Below, piece by piece: positions 11,240 through 19,419 of a stretch of 64,000 bases of DNA. The stretch is from a virus: the IMG/VR virus record IMGVR_UViG_3300007619_000129, positions 1-64,000 of that record; one strand, given 5' to 3'. Every line of letters starts with the position of its first letter. The first letter of the stretch is position 1. A program made the translations under genes and the position numbers. The notes under the pieces are model-generated. The model worked only from the letters and a program-made list of their open reading frames with translations. It searched no databases and was not told the DNA's origin.

Positions 11240-11950
11240 TCAAAGAATTTTATTTCCCTTCTTTAAATTATCCTCCTCCCACAAAGGTTGTAAATTTTTA
11301 TAGTTAAAACATTCCTTTTGTTGTTTTGGATCTAAAAAATCAAACGATGAACACGGCATGATATGATCAATATGCCAACCTTTAAGTCCATAATTGTCCC
11401 AAGTCATACCTGGTTGAAACTGTTTTTGTAAATGTTTTTTTAAATAATCTACAGTACAACCAAGAAGATCTAATGTTGATTTGGATTTATTTTTGCCACT
11501 TAATACGAGATTCAGTCTTCTTCTTAAATTTCCAATTAATCTAAAAACTGGATCAATTTCTCTTCTTTTTTTAGAATAAAAAATTTGATTTTCTATTATC
11601 TTTTCTCTGTTTTCTTCATAATATTCTTTTTTCTTTTCTTTTATCTTTTTTCTGTTTTCTTCATAATATTCTTTTTTACAATCTTTACAACAAGATTGTA
11701 ATCCATCTTTTTTGCTTTTGTCTTTATAAAAACAATCTAATCTCTTCTCTTTCCCACAATTCAAACACCTTTTCTTTCCTTTTATCGTTTTTTTATTTTT
11801 TTCATAATTTTCTTTATTTTTTTGACGATGTTCTTTTTGATATTCTTTATTACACGATTTACATTTAGACTGTAATCCATCTTTTTTGCTTTTGTCTTTG
11901 CTAAAACATTTTAAATCCTGCTCTTCACTACACTTTGAACATCTTTTCAT
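11240..11950 (-). CDS. Free-standing HNH endonuclease with tandem zinc fingers
   Basis: The 236 residues begin with two copies of a Cys4 finger (CSKCSEEQDLKCF ... CKSC at 4-35 and CLNCGKEKRLDCF ... CKDC at about 62-93), each followed by a Lys/Glu-rich helix. The C-terminal HNH domain reads GWHIDHIMPCSSF and then FNYKNLQPLWEEDNLKKGNK, giving the His-Asn-His metal/catalytic set. Such genes are selfish homing nucleases in T4-type phages. It lies between unknown genes and the SSB operon, and its leader is a diverged copy of the SSB leader, suggesting insertion here. The related gene at 45652-46071 has one finger only. Confidence 0.8.
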   Translation of the reverse strand: MKRCSKCSEEQDLKCFSKDKSKKDGLQSKCKSCNKEYQKEHRQKNKENYEKNKKTIKGKKRCLNCGKEKRLDCFYKDKSKKDGLQSCCKDCKKEYYEENRKKIKEKKKEYYEENREKIIENQIFYSKKRREIDPVFRLIGNLRRRLNLVLSGKNKSKSTLDLLGCTVDYLKKHLQKQFQPGMTWDNYGLKGWHIDHIMPCSSFDFLDPKQQKECFNYKNLQPLWEEDNLKKGNKIL

Positions 11951-12712: not shown

Positions 12713-13241
12713 GATCTGGCTCTTTCATTCGATATCTATGATTTTCGGGATAACCAGGACCATAAGACAATAATATTGCTAACCATTCTTCTTCTGTTAG
12801 TTTAATTCCAAACTCTTGGATTAAAAATAAGCTTCTATGAGTAGTCGCCATAAAACTAATATCTTTATTGTATGTGTAAGGCTTACCCCTTTCAGTCCAA
12901 TATGCATCAGATTTTTCAAATAAGTCATCTTTTCTTGTTCCAACAATCCCTATAGCAAAAAATAAACAACAGATAATCATAGATCTTTTATCTACTTTTG
13001 TTTTTGTTACTTTGACCACATCTCTCATTCTTTTTAGAACAGACAATGAAAAATCAACAAGCCCCCCCTCATAAGAACCTCCATATTCACTGGAGAATGG
13101 GGCAATTGCTAATCTTTCTCCAAAAAATTCTACCATTTCCTTAAATTTTTCTGCTCTATTCCCTAAAGAATCACACAATTTTAAATAAACATTATAATTT
13201 GACTCAATTTTGTCAATTTCTTTTATCTCTTGACTCTTCAT
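12639..13241 (-). CDS. HD-domain-like protein lacking catalytic residues
   Basis: The 200 residues follow the outline of small phage HD phosphohydrolases: a helix with YEGGLVDFSLSV (57-68) where the family has HxGGLLxHSL, CCLFFAIGIVGT (91-102) where it has LLHDIGKVG, THRSLFLIQEFGIKLTEEEWLAI (134-156), and a closing CIDIVRIQ where it has ADMLAT. The first His, the HD pair and the later His are replaced by Tyr, Ala-Ile and Ser. I infer a pseudoenzyme or a regulatory relative. It overlaps the polymerase gene by 29 nt, so a replication-linked role is possible. Confidence 0.5.
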   Translation of the reverse strand: MKSQEIKEIDKIESNYNVYLKLCDSLGNRAEKFKEMVEFFGERLAIAPFSSEYGGSYEGGLVDFSLSVLKRMRDVVKVTKTKVDKRSMIICCLFFAIGIVGTRKDDLFEKSDAYWTERGKPYTYNKDISFMATTHRSLFLIQEFGIKLTEEEWLAILLSYGPGYPENHRYRMKEPDLAVLLSNCIDIVRIQGKTKKNILS

Positions 13242-14448
13242 AGTTTTCAGAAATTATATCATGTTTTGCCTCAAAATTGTTTTTAAACCCTTTAATCTTT
13301 TTCATTCTATTCATTTCTTCCTTAAGGGTATCCAATAAACTACTCTTAACGTCTATTAGTATATCATCATGAATAACTGCTACGGGATCTGCCCCTTCAA
13401 TATTAGAAAAATTAATATTGGAAAATCCTAACATATAAGCGTCAACAGCAGTTGATTGTATTTTCGCATTATATAACTTGTGAGGGGCTGGATCTTTTAT
13501 TCTAATGATTTTTCCATAAAAATTTCTTATAAACCCTAATTCATTATATTCATACAATAAGTCTTTTGTTATCTTTTGTACTTTAAAATATTCTTTTATT
13601 TTTGAAATGTATTGATATAAATCAATATTCTCTATTTTTGTAGATTTAGATAACAATTCTTTTCCTGCACCATACAAAATTGATAAAACTAACTGTTTCG
13701 TAATATCTCTACTAATTTTAGAATTAAAAAGCTCATTTGAAATGTCTTGATATATATCCCCCTCTTTCATCTCTCTACCTGCTAAAATCAAAGCAATTTT
13801 TGGCTCTATAGAAATATAATCAATTGATACTATCAATCCATTTTCATATCTTGATTTTATTATATTTCTATATTCTTTTTTTAACGTTAATATTCTTGGA
13901 CCCTTTTTTATTTTCATTCTACCAGTTAGAGTATTTCTAGAATATTTTATTTCCCCAGCCAAACCATCCTCAAGTGGAATAAAGCTTTTTAGGGACCCGT
14001 TTACATCTTTATCATTACTCAAATATTGATTCAGCACGTCATTATCAATACAACACCTTTTTAGGTGCCCCAGAACCTTTTGAGACGTACAATATATATT
14101 TTCATAATACTCACACCCAATTTCTTTTAAGTCTTTCCACATGGACGACACAAGGTTCTGAGCGTATTCCATCCATTGATCCTTGGGCATAAATTTTCTC
14201 CAAGGTATATATTCATCTTCACACCCCAATAAACTAATAACATTATCCCAGGCTAGATTTCTACGGGGAGATTCATTAATTTTAAGACCATTTACAAGAA
14301 ATAATTTTTTTAGATTATTCTTGTAGTTTTCACTATTGTTGTAAACCCAACAGTCGTCAGGAATAGAATTAGATTGTAATATTTTTTTTCCATCAAAAAC
14401 TAAATGCTTTTCATGTCCTATTATTTTATTTTCAATACAAATTTTCAT
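13213..14448 (-). CDS. Family A DNA polymerase, polymerase domain only
   Basis: The 411 residues carry the PolA palm/fingers motifs: TLTGRM (173-178), motif A SIDYISIEP (D210, E215; family consensus DYSQIE), motif B RDITKQLVLSILYG (R247, K251, Y259), the QSTAVDAYML helix, and motif C VIHDDIL (H360, D361, D362; usual HDE). The residue equal to E. coli Phe762 is Leu255. No 3'-5' exonuclease domain is visible; residues 1-165 match nothing I recognise. The protein is short for a replicase, so it may be the phage replicase or a specialised polymerase. It overlaps the HD-like gene downstream by 29 nt. Confidence 0.8.
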   Translation of the reverse strand: MKICIENKIIGHEKHLVFDGKKILQSNSIPDDCWVYNNSENYKNNLKKLFLVNGLKINESPRRNLAWDNVISLLGCEDEYIPWRKFMPKDQWMEYAQNLVSSMWKDLKEIGCEYYENIYCTSQKVLGHLKRCCIDNDVLNQYLSNDKDVNGSLKSFIPLEDGLAGEIKYSRNTLTGRMKIKKGPRILTLKKEYRNIIKSRYENGLIVSIDYISIEPKIALILAGREMKEGDIYQDISNELFNSKISRDITKQLVLSILYGAGKELLSKSTKIENIDLYQYISKIKEYFKVQKITKDLLYEYNELGFIRNFYGKIIRIKDPAPHKLYNAKIQSTAVDAYMLGFSNINFSNIEGADPVAVIHDDILIDVKSSLLDTLKEEMNRMKKIKGFKNNFEAKHDIISENYEESRDKRN

Positions 14449-15497
14449 AAAGTTCTATTATTTTGTCTACTAAATTGAATGACCTCAGAAAACATTTCTT
14501 TTAGTAGATAAGGTTCAATTTCTTGCCTCGTTTTATATTTTCTACCATCAATTTCTATTAAGATAATGTTGTTTTCTTTACAATAATTCCTCAACCACTG
14601 ATCTCTTTGTTGTTGCTTCTTAAATCTACCTTTTTCCTTGTGAAAAAACGAATTTTCTTTATAGTGTTGTTCTCCATTATATTCAACAAATATTTTATTT
14701 TTGTTTAATATAATTTTAAAATCAATTTCTACTGATTTTTGAATTGTCTCTCCAAATTCATTCGTTATTGGTTTTTTTAATTTATATGATGAAACTATCT
14801 CTTTATTAGAAAAATTTTCTTTTAATATTTCTCCTGTTATTGTTTGCGATTTATATAAACACTTTGGACAACTTCTTCCATTACTTTTTTTGTTTATTCT
14901 TGATTTCCACTCATGACCTTCTTTACATTTCCACCAAACTTTCTTTTCAGAACCTGCCGAATAACATTCAGGACCTTTTTCATTTTTATCATAATTCCAT
15001 TCTTTGCAAAGTTCTGGGTGAGTTGTTTTTAAATCTGTTTCTCCAATAATCGGATATCTTCCCGAACAATAAGGGCAACAACTTCCATTTGTTCTACCCC
15101 TATTATTTATTATTGCCTCCCATTCATGATCTTCTATACATTTCCACCAAACTTTCTTTTCAGAACCTGCCGAATAACAATCGGGACCTTTTTCATTTTT
15201 ATTATAGTCCCATTCTTTACAAAGTTCTGGATGAGTGGTTTTTAAATCTGTTTTCCCAATAATGGGATATCTTCCCGAACATTTTGAACAACAACTTCCA
15301 TTTGCTCTACTTCTATTATTTATTATTGCTTCCCATTCATGACCTTCTGTACATTTCCACCAAACTTTCTTTTCAGAACCTGCCGAATAACATTCAGGTC
15401 CTTTTTCGTTTTTATCACAGTTCCATTCTTTGCAAAGTTCTGGATGAGTAGTTTTTAAATCTTCCTTTTTATTATTTTTTTTATCAACATCATTCAT
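14445..15497 (-). CDS. Zinc-ribbon-array nuclease A (three repeats)
   Basis: Three tandem repeats of about 70 residues (DLKTTHPELCKEW ... KKVWWKC ... HEW ... CxxC) match the treble-clef zinc-ribbon family DUF4379. After them comes a PD-(D/E)xK/VSR-like nuclease domain with EIDFKI, FVEYNGEQHY, and RDQWLRNYCKENNIILIEI. The family is thought to be mobile DNA-cutting enzymes. The preferred start is ATG 15497 (MNDVDKKNN); a GTG at 15518 is in frame but lies inside the promoter-like motif. The stop overlaps the polymerase start by 4 nt, so the polymerase may depend on this transcript. Two close paralogues lie at 16892-18121 and 18149-19390. Confidence 0.75.
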   Translation of the reverse strand: MNDVDKKNNKKEDLKTTHPELCKEWNCDKNEKGPECYSAGSEKKVWWKCTEGHEWEAIINNRSRANGSCCSKCSGRYPIIGKTDLKTTHPELCKEWDYNKNEKGPDCYSAGSEKKVWWKCIEDHEWEAIINNRGRTNGSCCPYCSGRYPIIGETDLKTTHPELCKEWNYDKNEKGPECYSAGSEKKVWWKCKEGHEWKSRINKKSNGRSCPKCLYKSQTITGEILKENFSNKEIVSSYKLKKPITNEFGETIQKSVEIDFKIILNKNKIFVEYNGEQHYKENSFFHKEKGRFKKQQQRDQWLRNYCKENNIILIEIDGRKYKTRQEIEPYLLKEMFSEVIQFSRQNNRTL

Positions 15498-15508
15498 TAC
15501 GTTAAAAA

Positions 15509-15517
15509 ATTCTATCA
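15509..15517 (-). promoter_or_regulatory. Extended -10 element of nuclease A
   Basis: TGATAGAAT on the minus strand fits TGnTATAAT; the -10 hexamer ends 11 nt before ATG 15497. No -35 and no Shine-Dalgarno site are visible, so the transcript would have a very short leader. The same arrangement precedes the other island genes. Confidence 0.45.
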
Positions 15518-15569
15518 CAAACCAAAAAAATCCCTTGACTTTTTATACAGATGATGAGAACATCAGTAC

Positions 15570-16184
15570 ATGCTTAATACTAATACATTACAAAAACTGT
15601 CTAAACAAATAAAGAATATAAGAAAAAGATTTCATGAAAACAAAAATAGTGAAGTGGTCAATAAAAGACTTCCAAATTTAGTTTATCTAAACAAAACAAC
15701 ATCTCCACAACTAGTTTCCACTGAAATAGAGAAATTCATTTCATATTCTATGGGATTTTCTACTCTTGGAAATTTTAGTCCATTTGGTGATGCATATGAC
15801 ATTTTTACAGGTGAAACTGTTGAAATTAAACACAGAATTACATTTGAAGATGAACTAAAAACATTAGATTATCTTCAAATAAGAAATTTCATAGATGATC
15901 TTGAAAGATATATTCTTATTTGGTTTAATATAAAAAACAATAATAAAATTTCTATTTTATCATTTTCTCTAACCAAAGAAGAAATGGAATATGAACTTGA
16001 ACAAACAAGAAAGGTTTCAAAATCACATTCAGACAGTGAAGAAAAAACTGTTAGGTTAGACGTAAATGGTAAAGACTTTAATAGGTGGATTGAAAATTAT
16101 GGAGACTCCTCAGTATCCAGAAAACTAATACAACATACAACTCCTTCACTTAGAAGGTTTCTTGAGATCTATAAGGGAAGATAA
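15570..16184 (+). CDS. Putative restriction endonuclease (PD-(D/E)xK-like)
   Basis: One of only two plus-strand genes, 204 residues. A possible PD-(D/E)xK centre is GDAYD then ETVEIKHR (D77, E85, K87), in a mixed alpha/beta protein with no other recognised domain. The gene runs head-on into a DNA methyltransferase gene, overlapping its 3' end by 39 bp. That is a frequent layout for type II restriction-modification pairs and is my main reason for the call. TTGACT (15535) and TATACA (15544) lie upstream but at poor spacing, so its promoter is uncertain. A non-nuclease accessory protein is the alternative. Confidence 0.5.
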   Translation: MLNTNTLQKLSKQIKNIRKRFHENKNSEVVNKRLPNLVYLNKTTSPQLVSTEIEKFISYSMGFSTLGNFSPFGDAYDIFTGETVEIKHRITFEDELKTLDYLQIRNFIDDLERYILIWFNIKNNNKISILSFSLTKEEMEYELEQTRKVSKSHSDSEEKTVRLDVNGKDFNRWIENYGDSSVSRKLIQHTTPSLRRFLEIYKGR

Positions 16185-16868
16185 ACACCTATAATACCAT
16201 TCTTTATCGTTTTCAATTCCCATAAAGTCCCTATTCAATTCTTTACATGCTTTTCCAGTAGTTCCTGATCCCATACAACAATCTAAAACCATATCTCCTT
16301 CATTCGTATAAGTTCTTACAATATATTTCATAAGCTCTAATGGCTTTTGTGTTGGGTGTCCATTTTTTATTCTTGGATTAGATACCCTTATGACGGATCT
16401 AGCATGTCTATATCCGTCATTTTCTTTTTTGTTTTCTCTTTGTTTTCCGTAACCTTGTTCTTTTAGAGCTTTTCTACTTATTTTATATGGGCTTCCTTTT
16501 GTTTTTTGTTCATTGTATGTAGGTTGTTTTCTATAAAAAACTAAAATAGACTCATGAACCCTTAGTGGTTGTCTTTTTATATTTAATTGTCCAGAACCAA
16601 TTGTTTTTTCCCAGATTATCTCATATCTGAAATCTCTAATGTTTGACGATACCAGCATTGAAGTAAATGGTTGTGTAGCAGTAAAAATAAAAGGACAATC
16701 ATTTTTACCAATTCTGTAAAACTCTTTCCACAAAGGATCAAAAGGAATAATGATGTCCCATTTATTTTGACTTGTTCCATATGGGAGATCTACAATAACA
16801 GCATCAACACAGTCATTCTCTATAGACTTTAATAATTTTAAACAATCACCATAAAATATTTTTATCAC
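16146..16868 (-). CDS. DNA adenine/cytosine-N4 methyltransferase
   Basis: Transfers methyl from S-adenosylmethionine to an exocyclic amino group in DNA. In 240 residues the motif order is that of beta-class amino-methyltransferases: catalytic DLPYGTS (27-33), IWEKT, HPTQKP (171-176), then SAM-binding VLDCCMGSGTTG (194-205). DLPY in place of DPPY is a known variant in phage and type II enzymes. The start is GTG 16868, with an extended -10 box only 9 nt upstream and no Shine-Dalgarno site. It converges with the nuclease-like gene 15570-16184, so it may protect against that enzyme, or it may act alone as an anti-restriction methylase. Confidence 0.85.
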   Translation of the reverse strand: MIKIFYGDCLKLLKSIENDCVDAVIVDLPYGTSQNKWDIIIPFDPLWKEFYRIGKNDCPFIFTATQPFTSMLVSSNIRDFRYEIIWEKTIGSGQLNIKRQPLRVHESILVFYRKQPTYNEQKTKGSPYKISRKALKEQGYGKQRENKKENDGYRHARSVIRVSNPRIKNGHPTQKPLELMKYIVRTYTNEGDMVLDCCMGSGTTGKACKELNRDFMGIENDKEWYYRCLSSLIDLKKPSK

Positions 16869-16877
16869 AATATAAAA

Positions 16878-16886
16878 AGTATATCA
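16878..16886 (-). promoter_or_regulatory. Extended -10 element of the methyltransferase gene
   Basis: TGATATACT (TG-n-TATACT) ends 9 nt before the GTG start, predicting an almost leaderless mRNA. A TATAAT just upstream (near 16894-16899) could be an alternative. The same block stands before 18121. Confidence 0.45.
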
Positions 16887-16891
16887 CACCA

Positions 16892-18121
16892 TTATAATGT
16901 CTTATTTCTTTTATTAAATTGAATGATCTCAAATAACATTTCTTTTAATAAATAAGGCTCAATTTCTTCCTCCGTTTTATATTTTCTACCATCAATTTCT
17001 ATTAAGATAATGTTGTTTTCTTTACAATAATTCCTCAACCACCTATCTCGTTGTTGTTGCTGTTCAAACCTTCCTTTTTCCCTGTGAAAAAACGAAGTTT
17101 CTTTATAGTGTTGTTCTCCATTATATTCAACAAATATTTTAATTTTTTTGTTTAATGTAATTTTAAAATCAATTTCTACTGATTTTTGAATTGTCTCTCC
17201 AAATTCATTCGTTATTGGTTTTTTTAGTCTATGTTGTGAAACTATCTCTTTATTAGGAAAATTTTCTTTTAATATTTTTTCTGTTATTGTTTGAGACTTA
17301 TAAAGACATTTTGGACAACCACTTCCATTTGTTCTTTTGTTTATTGTTGCTTTCCACTCATGATCTTCTGTACATTTCCACCAAACTTTCTTGCCAGAAC
17401 CTGCCGAATAACACTCAGATCCTTTTTCGTTTTTATCACAGTTCCATTCTTTACAAAGTTCAGAATTCGTGGTTTTTAAATCATTATATCCTTTTAGTGT
17501 CTTTTGTCCAGAACAATAAGGACAACCTATTCCCTTTGTTCTTTTGTTTATTATTGATTCCCATTCATGATCTTTTTTACATTTCCACCAAACTTTCTTC
17601 GTAGAACCTGCCGAATAACATTCAGGTCTTTTTTTATTTTTATCATAATTCCACTCTTCACAAAGTTCAGAGTGAGTTGTTTTTAAGTCATTATACCCTT
17701 CTAAAACTTTGTTTCCAGAACAATAAGGACAACAGCATCCATTTGATCTACTAGCTATTATTGCTTCCCATTCATGACCTTCTGTACATTTCCACCAAAC
17801 TTTCTTCGTAGAACCTACCGAATAACATTCAGGTCCTTTTTTGTTTTTTACGTAATCCCATTCTTTACACAATTTTGGGTTAATTGTTTTTAAATCATTA
17901 TACCTTTCTAAAACTTTGTTTCCAGAACAATAAGGACAACCCATTCCTTTTGATCTGTTTTTTATTATTGCTTCCCATTCATGACCTTCTGTACATTTCC
18001 ATCCAACTTTCTTGTTAGAACCTTTTGTATAATACTCAAGACCCTTTTTATTTTTATCATAGTCCCATTCTTTACAAAGTTCTGGATGAGTAGTTTTTAA
18101 ATTTTTTTTTATCAACCTCAT
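16892..18121 (-). CDS. Zinc-ribbon-array nuclease B (four repeats)
   Basis: A 409-residue paralogue of nuclease A. Four DUF4379-type repeats (each L-C-EW, Y-x-G(S)-KKVxWKC, HEW, CxxC) are followed by the VSR-like nuclease domain (EIDFKI, FVEYNGEQHY, RDRWLRNYCKENNIILIEI). The frame starts at ATG 18121. A homologous ATG four bases upstream, equal to the start of nuclease A, is out of frame because of a run of nine A (near 18102-18110), so this N-terminus may be altered by an indel. The repeats differ at the residue before KKVWWKC (N, T, T, G) and in the loop before the last CxxC, as might be expected if each reads a different DNA site. Confidence 0.75.
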   Translation of the reverse strand: MRLIKKNLKTTHPELCKEWDYDKNKKGLEYYTKGSNKKVGWKCTEGHEWEAIIKNRSKGMGCPYCSGNKVLERYNDLKTINPKLCKEWDYVKNKKGPECYSVGSTKKVWWKCTEGHEWEAIIASRSNGCCCPYCSGNKVLEGYNDLKTTHSELCEEWNYDKNKKRPECYSAGSTKKVWWKCKKDHEWESIINKRTKGIGCPYCSGQKTLKGYNDLKTTNSELCKEWNCDKNEKGSECYSAGSGKKVWWKCTEDHEWKATINKRTNGSGCPKCLYKSQTITEKILKENFPNKEIVSQHRLKKPITNEFGETIQKSVEIDFKITLNKKIKIFVEYNGEQHYKETSFFHREKGRFEQQQQRDRWLRNYCKENNIILIEIDGRKYKTEEEIEPYLLKEMLFEIIQFNKRNKTL

Positions 18122-18134
18122 TCATTACATAAAA

Positions 18135-18143
18135 AGTATATCA
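18135..18143 (-). promoter_or_regulatory. Extended -10 element of nuclease B
   Basis: TGATATACT on the minus strand; the -10 hexamer ends 13 nt before ATG 18121. The block is nearly identical to that before the methyltransferase gene and lies just after the stop of nuclease C. Confidence 0.45.
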
Positions 18144-18148
18144 CGTTA

Positions 18149-19390
18149 TTATAATGTCTTATTTCTTTTATTAAATTGAATTATTTTACATAACACCTCT
18201 TTTAGTAAATAAGGCTCAATTTCTTGCCTAGTTTTATATTTTCTACCATCAATTTCTATTAAGATAATGTTGTTTTGTTTACAATAATTCCTCAACCATT
18301 GATCTCGTTGTTGTTGCTTCTTAAATGTACCTTTTTCCTTGTGAAAAAAGTAGTGTTCTTTATAATGTTGTTCTCCATTATATTCAACAAATATTTTAAT
18401 TTTTTTGTTTAATGTAATTTTAAAATCAATAAACAAATATTTTCTAATTCGTTCACCATCTTTACTAAAAGCTGAACACTTAAGAAAATAATGTGGACTT
18501 ATTTTTAAGTTGTTTGATAAAACATTTTTTAATATTATTTTTTTTATTATTTTTTCTTTTTTGTTTGAACCTTTAGAGCACTCTGGACAAGAGTTTCCAT
18601 AAACCCTATTATTTATAGAAGAATTCCATTCATGATTTTTTGTACATATCCACCAAACCTTTTTACCAGAACATTTTGGATAGTATTCAGGTCCTTTATT
18701 GTTCTTTACATAATTCCATTCTTTACACAATTTTGGATTAATTGTTTTTAAGTCATTAAATCCTTTTAATACTTTAAATCCCGAACAATAAGGACATCTA
18801 CTACCAGACGAAATATGACTTATACTAGTTTTCCACTCATGACCTTCTTTACATTTCCACCAAACTTTTTTATTAGAGAAAACAGAGTAAAATTCTGGTC
18901 CATATTTATTTTTTTCATAATTCCATTCTTCACAAAGTTCAGGATAAATTGTTTTTAGATCTGTTTTCCCAATAATCGGATATCTTCCCCGACAATAGGG
19001 ACAACCAACTTTTTTTATTGTCCTATCTGATACTCTTGCATCCCATTCATGATACTTTTTACATTTCCATCCAACTTTCTTGTTAGAACCTGCCGAATAA
19101 CATTCAGGTCCTTTTTTATTTTTATCACAATTCCACTCTTCACAAAGTTCAGAGTGAGTTGTTTTTAAGTCATTATATCCTTCTAAAACTTTCTTTCCCG
19201 AACAAAAAGGACAATTTCTTCCATTAATTCTTTTGTTTATACTCGCTTTCCACTCATGTTTATACTTGTAACATTTCCACCAAACCTTTTTGCTTGATCC
19301 GTGAGAAAAGTCTTTAGGGTTACCACCTATTGCGTAGTGCCACTCATTAATTAAACACTCTTTCCATCTGGGGTGATCTGTTAAATTCAC
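18149..19390 (-). CDS. Zinc-ribbon-array nuclease C (four repeats)
   Basis: A 413-residue paralogue with four more diverged zinc-ribbon repeats; the first begins HPRWKECLINEWHYA and has WKCYKYKHEW in place of WKCxxxHEW. The nuclease domain (LFIDFKITLNKK, FVEYNGEQHY, RDQWLRNYCKQNNIILIEI) is almost the same as in A and B at its end, but the linker before it differs (KISPHYFLKCSAFS). The start is GTG 19390, 7 nt after an extended -10 box. It lies next to the tail hub candidate gene, at the edge of the island. Confidence 0.75.
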   Translation of the reverse strand: MNLTDHPRWKECLINEWHYAIGGNPKDFSHGSSKKVWWKCYKYKHEWKASINKRINGRNCPFCSGKKVLEGYNDLKTTHSELCEEWNCDKNKKGPECYSAGSNKKVGWKCKKYHEWDARVSDRTIKKVGCPYCRGRYPIIGKTDLKTIYPELCEEWNYEKNKYGPEFYSVFSNKKVWWKCKEGHEWKTSISHISSGSRCPYCSGFKVLKGFNDLKTINPKLCKEWNYVKNNKGPEYYPKCSGKKVWWICTKNHEWNSSINNRVYGNSCPECSKGSNKKEKIIKKIILKNVLSNNLKISPHYFLKCSAFSKDGERIRKYLFIDFKITLNKKIKIFVEYNGEQHYKEHYFFHKEKGTFKKQQQRDQWLRNYCKQNNIILIEIDGRKYKTRQEIEPYLLKEVLCKIIQFNKRNKTL

Positions 19391-19397
19391 AAGTAAA

Positions 19398-19406
19398 ATT
19401 TTATCA
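19398..19406 (-). promoter_or_regulatory. Extended -10 element of nuclease C
   Basis: TGATAAAAT on the minus strand; the -10 hexamer ends only 7 nt before GTG 19390, so the mRNA may be leaderless. No -35 or Shine-Dalgarno site is visible. Confidence 0.4.
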
Positions 19407-19419
19407 CACTTTTTATTCT

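Follow-up and report, generated by a model that had tools for sequence, protein, structure and literature searches.

What do three neighbouring phage genes encode when each joins a string of zinc-ribbon repeats to a similar nuclease, and could those repeats be a means of reading DNA? The question is raised by positions 1 to 64,000 of IMG/VR record IMGVR_UViG_3300007619_000129 (this stretch of 64,000 nucleotides is called the window here), which belong to a virus record 88,566 bp long. The record belongs to a tailed phage, with genes for a tail sheath, UvsX/RecA, a 5'-3' exonuclease, DnaB and a short family-A DNA polymerase. The three genes, designated A, B and C, carry 3, 4 and 4 copies of DUF4379 (PF14311; Pfam, E 9e-44 to 9e-65), joined to one C-terminal nuclease domain, in agreement with an earlier reading of the sequence alone. 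Judged by sequence and context, their products are probably homing endonucleases, free-standing and of the EDxHD/Vsr-like type, and the genes sit within an island that is missing from related phages. Whether each repeat reads a particular stretch of bases is a separate matter, on which the evidence points both ways.

The island and its nucleases

The island and the two genes that flank it are as follows.
14449-19419 (4,971 bp), no strand assigned: inserted island, flanked by the gene for a 971-aa, probably structural protein and by the DNA polymerase gene
13213-14448, minus strand: flanking gene, short family-A DNA polymerase (PF00476, E 2e-14), aligned end to end with homologues of 394 and 397 aa
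19420-22335, minus strand: flanking gene, 971-aa protein, probably structural, with homologues in seven related contigs, where the polymerase gene always adjoins

In seven related phage contigs (L038, L039, L040, L042, L043, L044 and L046, of which L042, L044 and L046 are mutually close), only 17-51 bp separate the homologue of the 971-aa gene from the polymerase homologue that comes directly after it, whereas the corresponding gap in the window measures 4,971 bp. The downstream gene order is the same in the window and in these contigs, and the island genes (A, B, C, an N6/N4 DNA methylase gene and a convergent 204-aa open reading frame, ORF) are missing from the matching position in all seven. 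Because the flanking genes lie so close together in these relatives, the insertion at the structural-polymerase junction is a mobile island. No DUF4379 copy was found in the whole records of L038 and L040 (records G002 and G003). The stop codon of gene A overlaps the polymerase start (ATGA); a split or broken polymerase at 13213-14448 was considered and ruled out, as its homologues are equal in length. Homing endonuclease genes (HEGs) typically adjoin essential replication genes (PMC10448857).

The C-terminal domain keeps a set of active-site-like residues. Across 33 homologues, D318, E332, G335, H338 and D359 (B numbering) are conserved, with counts of 32 for D318, 33 for E332, and 31 each for H338 and D359. 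In the N-terminal helix, a glutamate occupies 29 of the 33 sequences at a column where three sequences have S, and in B a glutamate five positions further on may correspond to the N-terminal catalytic residue. Pfam gives weak DUF559/DUF2726 matches to the domain, and PHROGs assigns it to phrog_9084, 'homing endonuclease' (E to 1.5e-14), phrog_559, 'HNH endonuclease' (E to 1e-34), and to intron-encoded nuclease families. In an AlphaFold2 model of B (mean pLDDT, the predicted local distance difference test score, 85), each repeat runs through a strand, a zinc knuckle, a second strand, a short helix and a CPxC knuckle, and the nuclease core is a β-hairpin with helices that resembles the PD-(D/E)XK fold. 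A search of the PDB with this model returned no strong nuclease match, strong matches being confined to trypanosome mitoribosome proteins. In BFVD, the same architecture occurs among giant viruses, and also in proteins of the Bacillus phages Eldridge and Bobb that are named homing endonucleases. Sequence and fold lend weak support to the VSR-like assignment made earlier.

The empty site in all seven relatives, the PHROGs matches, the conserved active-site-like residues and the presence of the same repeat-nuclease architecture in 153 ORFs (1-13 repeat copies, among the loci gathered) all support homing. In the proposed mechanism, a tandem array of three free-standing HEGs would have invaded the gap just upstream of the phage DNA polymerase gene, with the DUF4379 string as the presumed DNA-binding module and the EDxHD/Vsr-like, PD-(D/E)XK-type nuclease as the presumed cleavage part. 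The enzyme would cut island-free relatives near the structural-polymerase junction, and repair off an island-bearing genome would copy the island in. Gene copies would have arisen by duplication and exchanged pieces by recombination, with repeats amplified or swapped and the nuclease core shared; the methylase gene and the convergent ORF would have been carried along, the former behind a copy of the same leader.

Four observations weigh against this account. The alignment of the N-terminal catalytic glutamate expected of EDxHD enzymes is uncertain, and the EDxHD catalytic domain of I-Bth0305I (3r3p) matches the B model weakly (E 0.84, TMt 0.55). Solved structures with DUF4379 were found only among mitoribosome proteins or assembly factors of trypanosomes, with no known DNA binder among them. 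Finally, no empty allele was found within the population: the second IMG/VR contig that carries the island is 100% identical, and therefore useless as an allele.

Mosaic structure of genes A, B and C

DUF4379 domains are treble-clef zinc repeats, and in A, B and C they recur with a period of 69-71 residues. Whole-protein scores for the 11 repeats range from 148 to 215 bits against a Pfam gathering cut-off of 24.5, and all 11 copies found in the 88.6-kb record sit in these three genes. Repeat positions are those of the Pfam matches.
14445-15518, minus strand: gene A, 357 aa as listed, three DUF4379 repeats and nuclease
15270-15437, minus strand: repeat A1
15057-15224, minus strand: repeat A2
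14859-15011, minus strand: repeat A3
14502-14792, minus strand: nuclease domain of A
16892-18121, minus strand: gene B, 409 aa, four DUF4379 repeats and nuclease
17921-18079, minus strand: repeat B1
17714-17872, minus strand: repeat B2
17504-17665, minus strand: repeat B3
17306-17458, minus strand: repeat B4
16946-17239, minus strand: nuclease domain of B
18149-19390, minus strand: gene C, 413 aa, four DUF4379 repeats and nuclease
19193-19354, minus strand: repeat C1, divergent
18983-19147, minus strand: repeat C2, A/B-like and exchanged (Pfam and DNA comparison)
18779-18937, minus strand: repeat C3
18572-18730, minus strand: repeat C4
18203-18493, minus strand: nuclease domain of C, with a recombination breakpoint at about 18430

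The original start of gene B appears to have been lost through a frameshift in an A-run (window 18100-18130), which leaves MNEVDKKK... out of frame; the gene now begins at the next in-frame ATG, and the counterpart N-terminus in A reads MNDVDKKNNKK.

The nuclease cores of the three genes share 90% DNA identity, with 0.26-0.38 synonymous (dS) and 0.07-0.08 nonsynonymous (dN) substitutions per site, and the identity of their repeats ranges from 51% to 89%. Gene C is 67-69% identical to A and B over everything left of the IDFK motif at residue 321, versus 90% in the core, and identity falls to 52-53% in the 45 residues that precede the motif. The best single breakpoint in C lies at residue 321 with either partner, a result matched by none of 500 permutations. 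Because near-identity to A and B starts only there, the DNA comparison indicates that gene C exchanged its nuclease core, with residue 321 as the recombination boundary. The sequence-only reading had described the nuclease as nearly constant, which holds for A and B and for the core of C from IDFK onward, though not for the 45 residues before it.

Exchange and amplification have reached the repeats as well. Among themselves, repeats A1-A3 share 85-89% identity. Repeat C2 differs from the A/B repeats by a dS of 0.40-0.68, the values for C3 and C4 being mostly >0.9, and it shares the linker RYPIIGK with A1 and A2. Identity between genes A and B is 77% up to the last repeat and 89.5% from there on. 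The mutual likeness of A1-A3, the affinity of C2 and the core identities therefore show that repeats and nuclease cores were exchanged and amplified as modules, and the adding and swapping of repeats postulated at the outset are borne out by A1-A3 and C2. Approximately 45 bp are common to the C/B and B/methylase junctions.

Fast-evolving repeat columns and the question of DNA reading

The repeats had been said to differ chiefly at a few loop positions. A hypervariable set was defined as the 12 columns of highest entropy among the 56 columns of the repeat, using solely 174 repeats of other phages. In A, B and C, dN/dS is 0.99 (0.58-1.74) in these 12 columns and 0.19 (0.09-0.33) in the remaining ones, so that the hypervariable columns evolve about 5 times faster than the rest of the repeat, consistent with the original description; none of 1,989 random 12-column sets matched their dN. 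On the B model, these positions lie before strand 1, in the first zinc knuckle, and in strand 2, the short helix and the loop preceding CPxC. Synonymous sites saturate in these AT-rich phages and absolute dN/dS values are approximate, including the overall repeat value of ~0.33; therefore, only the patch-to-rest ratio is relied upon. Positive selection on the repeats was considered and rejected, the hypervariable dN/dS being ~1 and never clearly >1. Pairwise dN/dS values of other phages are no evidence for selection, since there the choice of columns is circular.

What these columns do is less clear than how fast they change. The likelier of two explanations, although it falls somewhat short of an even chance, is relaxed constraint on exposed loops, with repeats that bind DNA (or RNA) non-specifically and a nuclease that sets the site; this is compatible with homing and competes solely with the idea of a modular reader. 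It is favored by a dN/dS of ~1 and not more, by the variation of the same columns throughout the family (Spearman 0.60 with other phages), and by the membership of the solved DUF4379 proteins in mitoribosome complexes. It is also favored by a comparison of phage HEG homologues: those flanked on both sides by homologous sequence conserve their hypervariable columns no more than HEGs from unrelated locations do. The flanks had diverged in most of these same-site pairs, and the targets have therefore perhaps changed too. On the other side, in close chromosomal homologues the hypervariable columns have a median dN/dS of 0.13, with 0.08 for the remainder (17 non-independent pairs); because they are constrained there, they are not simply free to drift. 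Furthermore, the columns differ between repeats of one protein, the repeats vary in number, and they occur joined to different nucleases.

The second explanation, and a rather doubtful one, is that DUF4379 repeats form a true modular DNA reader, in which each repeat would recognize a short base stretch through ~12 positions and retargeting would occur by changing residues or by adding and swapping repeats on a shared nuclease core. These positions would lie in the knuckle, on the outward side of strand 2, in the short helix and in the loop after it. As expected of a reader module, the same DUF4379 repeats occur with other C-terminal nuclease types. In other proteins they are joined to a Vsr-type C-terminus of another kind (VYEFLGDFWHGNP) or to one that looks NUMOD1-like, named by eye. 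The modular reader suggested by the sequence-only reading thus gains from the array on a constant nuclease, from repeat addition and swapping, from a defined set of hypervariable columns and from these other pairings, and loses from a dN/dS that does not exceed 1 and from the behavior of the same-site homologues.

Island companions and relatives

Two further genes lie between A and B.
16146-16868, minus strand: N6/N4 DNA methyltransferase, 240 aa (PF01555, E 9e-31; phrog_67, E 4e-66; PADLOC Type II methyltransferase, E 5e-68)
15570-16184, plus strand: 204-aa ORF convergent with the methylase gene, with a GDAYD...VEIKH stretch that is PD-(D/E)XK-like by eye

A type II-like N6/N4 methylase gene and, next to it, a convergent ORF whose motif resembles PD-(D/E)XK, together with the label 'restriction endonuclease' on giant-virus relatives, raise the possibility that the island serves mainly for restriction-modification or phage exclusion, in which case A, B and C (or the plus-strand ORF) would cut competing DNA unprotected by the methylase. 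This is improbable, however, as there is one methylase for three paralogous nucleases, its family is common in phages (922 records), PADLOC has no match to the nucleases, the repeat-nuclease architecture is widespread in phages, and the plus-strand ORF has no detectable relatives. For the latter, searches of IMG/VR, phages, plasmids and 200 Bacillota genomes returned no relative; it matched no family, and single-sequence fold prediction gave no usable fold. Its standing as a candidate restriction endonuclease is a conjecture from the motif.

The resemblance of the nuclease to the Vsr/EDxHD group and the adjoining methylase gene might also suggest Vsr-type mismatch-repair enzymes partnered with that methylase. 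Vsr repairs T:G mismatches at 5-methylcytosine sites. The island methylase is of the N6/N4 type and not a 5-methylcytosine partner, and Vsr neither has a repeat array nor occurs in three copies, which makes this interpretation very unlikely.

Homing endonuclease genes that brought along a methylase gene are favored here. Four of the island genes are preceded by exact matches to one leader motif, GTGATANAMTTT.
19396-19407, minus strand: motif before C
18133-18144, minus strand: motif before B
16876-16887, minus strand: motif before the methylase gene
15507-15518, minus strand: motif before the likely ATG start of A

Translation of A probably begins at the ATG that forms codon 8 of the listed ORF, since the motif includes the GTG at 15518. 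These are 4 exact matches in 64 kb, versus 0.22 expected, and a fifth copy lies upstream of the phage primase gene (G000 69156-69167; primase named by eye). A recombination scar restricted to the island, the other candidate for the motif, is weakened by this fifth copy; because it precedes the primase gene, the motif is probably a promoter, of an unrecognized class, of this phage.

Other nuclease genes have entered these genomes, and the phage group around the window and L040 has been invaded repeatedly. In L040, a different Vsr-type nuclease gene (by eye) lies between the recA and exonuclease genes (17573-18439). A second invader in the window (11240-11950, minus strand) encodes 236 aa of the HNH/Endo VII type (phrog_1035, E 2e-34). 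It carries a tandemly duplicated zinc ribbon of its own (CSKC..CKSC, CLNC..CKDC), and no homologue was found in the related contigs; its nuclease is unrelated to A, B and C, yet it shows the same habit of repeat duplication. Another homing-nuclease array, of four tandem, mostly overlapping genes of the same superfamily, occurs in a 265-kb phage contig (L032:4578-8081; also L030). Separately, a 1,073-aa ORF at L183:1020-4241 resembles SbcD (Mre11-like) and SbcC (Rad50-like) fused in one frame (by eye).

More distant relatives place the repeats in varied settings. L058, L063, L130 and ~75 other genome loci (L052-L131) from Clostridia and other bacteria encode proteins in which a central Vsr-like domain is surrounded by 6-13 DUF4379 repeats, and L063 contains near-identical repeat blocks duplicated internally. 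The Clostridia proteins (e.g., L058, L063) have the same repeat family and the same hypervariable columns, constrained between close relatives, but unlike A, B and C they arrange ~8 repeats (range 6-13) around the nuclease. Chromosomal DUF4379 proteins at L083, L092, L100, L108, L116 and L123 have a C-terminus resembling the NUMOD1 DNA-binding motif and no nuclease-profile match. The treble-clef zinc finger/restriction endonuclease proteins of giant viruses are close in architecture, Harvfovirus A0A3G5A1D6 being the best BFVD fold match (33% identity over 418 columns), although they come from eukaryotic giant viruses and their function is putative. In Sporosarcina phage Lietuvens, one repeat-nuclease ORF lies between the helicase and primase genes.

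The T5orf172 nuclease, found in another group of phage HEGs, is GIY-YIG-like. In that group, beads-on-a-string zinc-finger repeats are proposed to recombine within and between HEGs, changing the specificity of the enzymes, and HEG islands cluster by essential replication genes (PMC10448857, 2023); the likeness to A, B and C is evident, although the nuclease is not PD-(D/E)XK/EDxHD-like and the repeat family is another. Also described are HEGs in which an EDxHD/Vsr-like nuclease is combined with 3-5 CapR/DUF4379/DUF723-like domains, with 'thousands of hits in UniProt', and DNA binding by the CapR/DUF4379-like repeats was proposed (PMC12350094; NAR 2025). Like A, B and C, these have zinc-type repeats of ~60 aa followed by one C-terminal nuclease of ~100 aa; unlike them, they reside in group I/II introns, whereas A, B and C are free-standing and follow one another in tandem, their DUF4379 repeats are clear, and a methylase gene lies between copies. 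I-Bth0305I, an EDxHD homing endonuclease with a target of up to ~60 bp (reviewed in PMC3943268), likewise tethers its nuclease domain to a multi-part DNA-binding region, as A, B and C would, but that region is different and the fold match is weak.

Repeat arrays with this nuclease and shuffled zinc-finger repeats in phage HEGs are thus already published (PMC12350094; PMC10448857), and because recombining repeats and a DNA-binding role have both been proposed, the modular-reader idea is not new. What the DNA comparisons add is the mosaicism of A, B and C, including the core exchange in C, the 12 fast-evolving columns, and the leader motif common to four island genes. Even if the repeats do not read DNA, the island would give a clear example of homing endonucleases that have duplicated and recombine where they stand, and that carry a methylase, beside a replication gene. 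The hypervariable columns are candidates for a DNA-reading surface, and, should they have that role, the three natural paralogues that share a nuclease core, together with hundreds of relatives (1-13 repeats), would provide a ready data set from which to derive a specificity code for a family of zinc repeats still lacking one.

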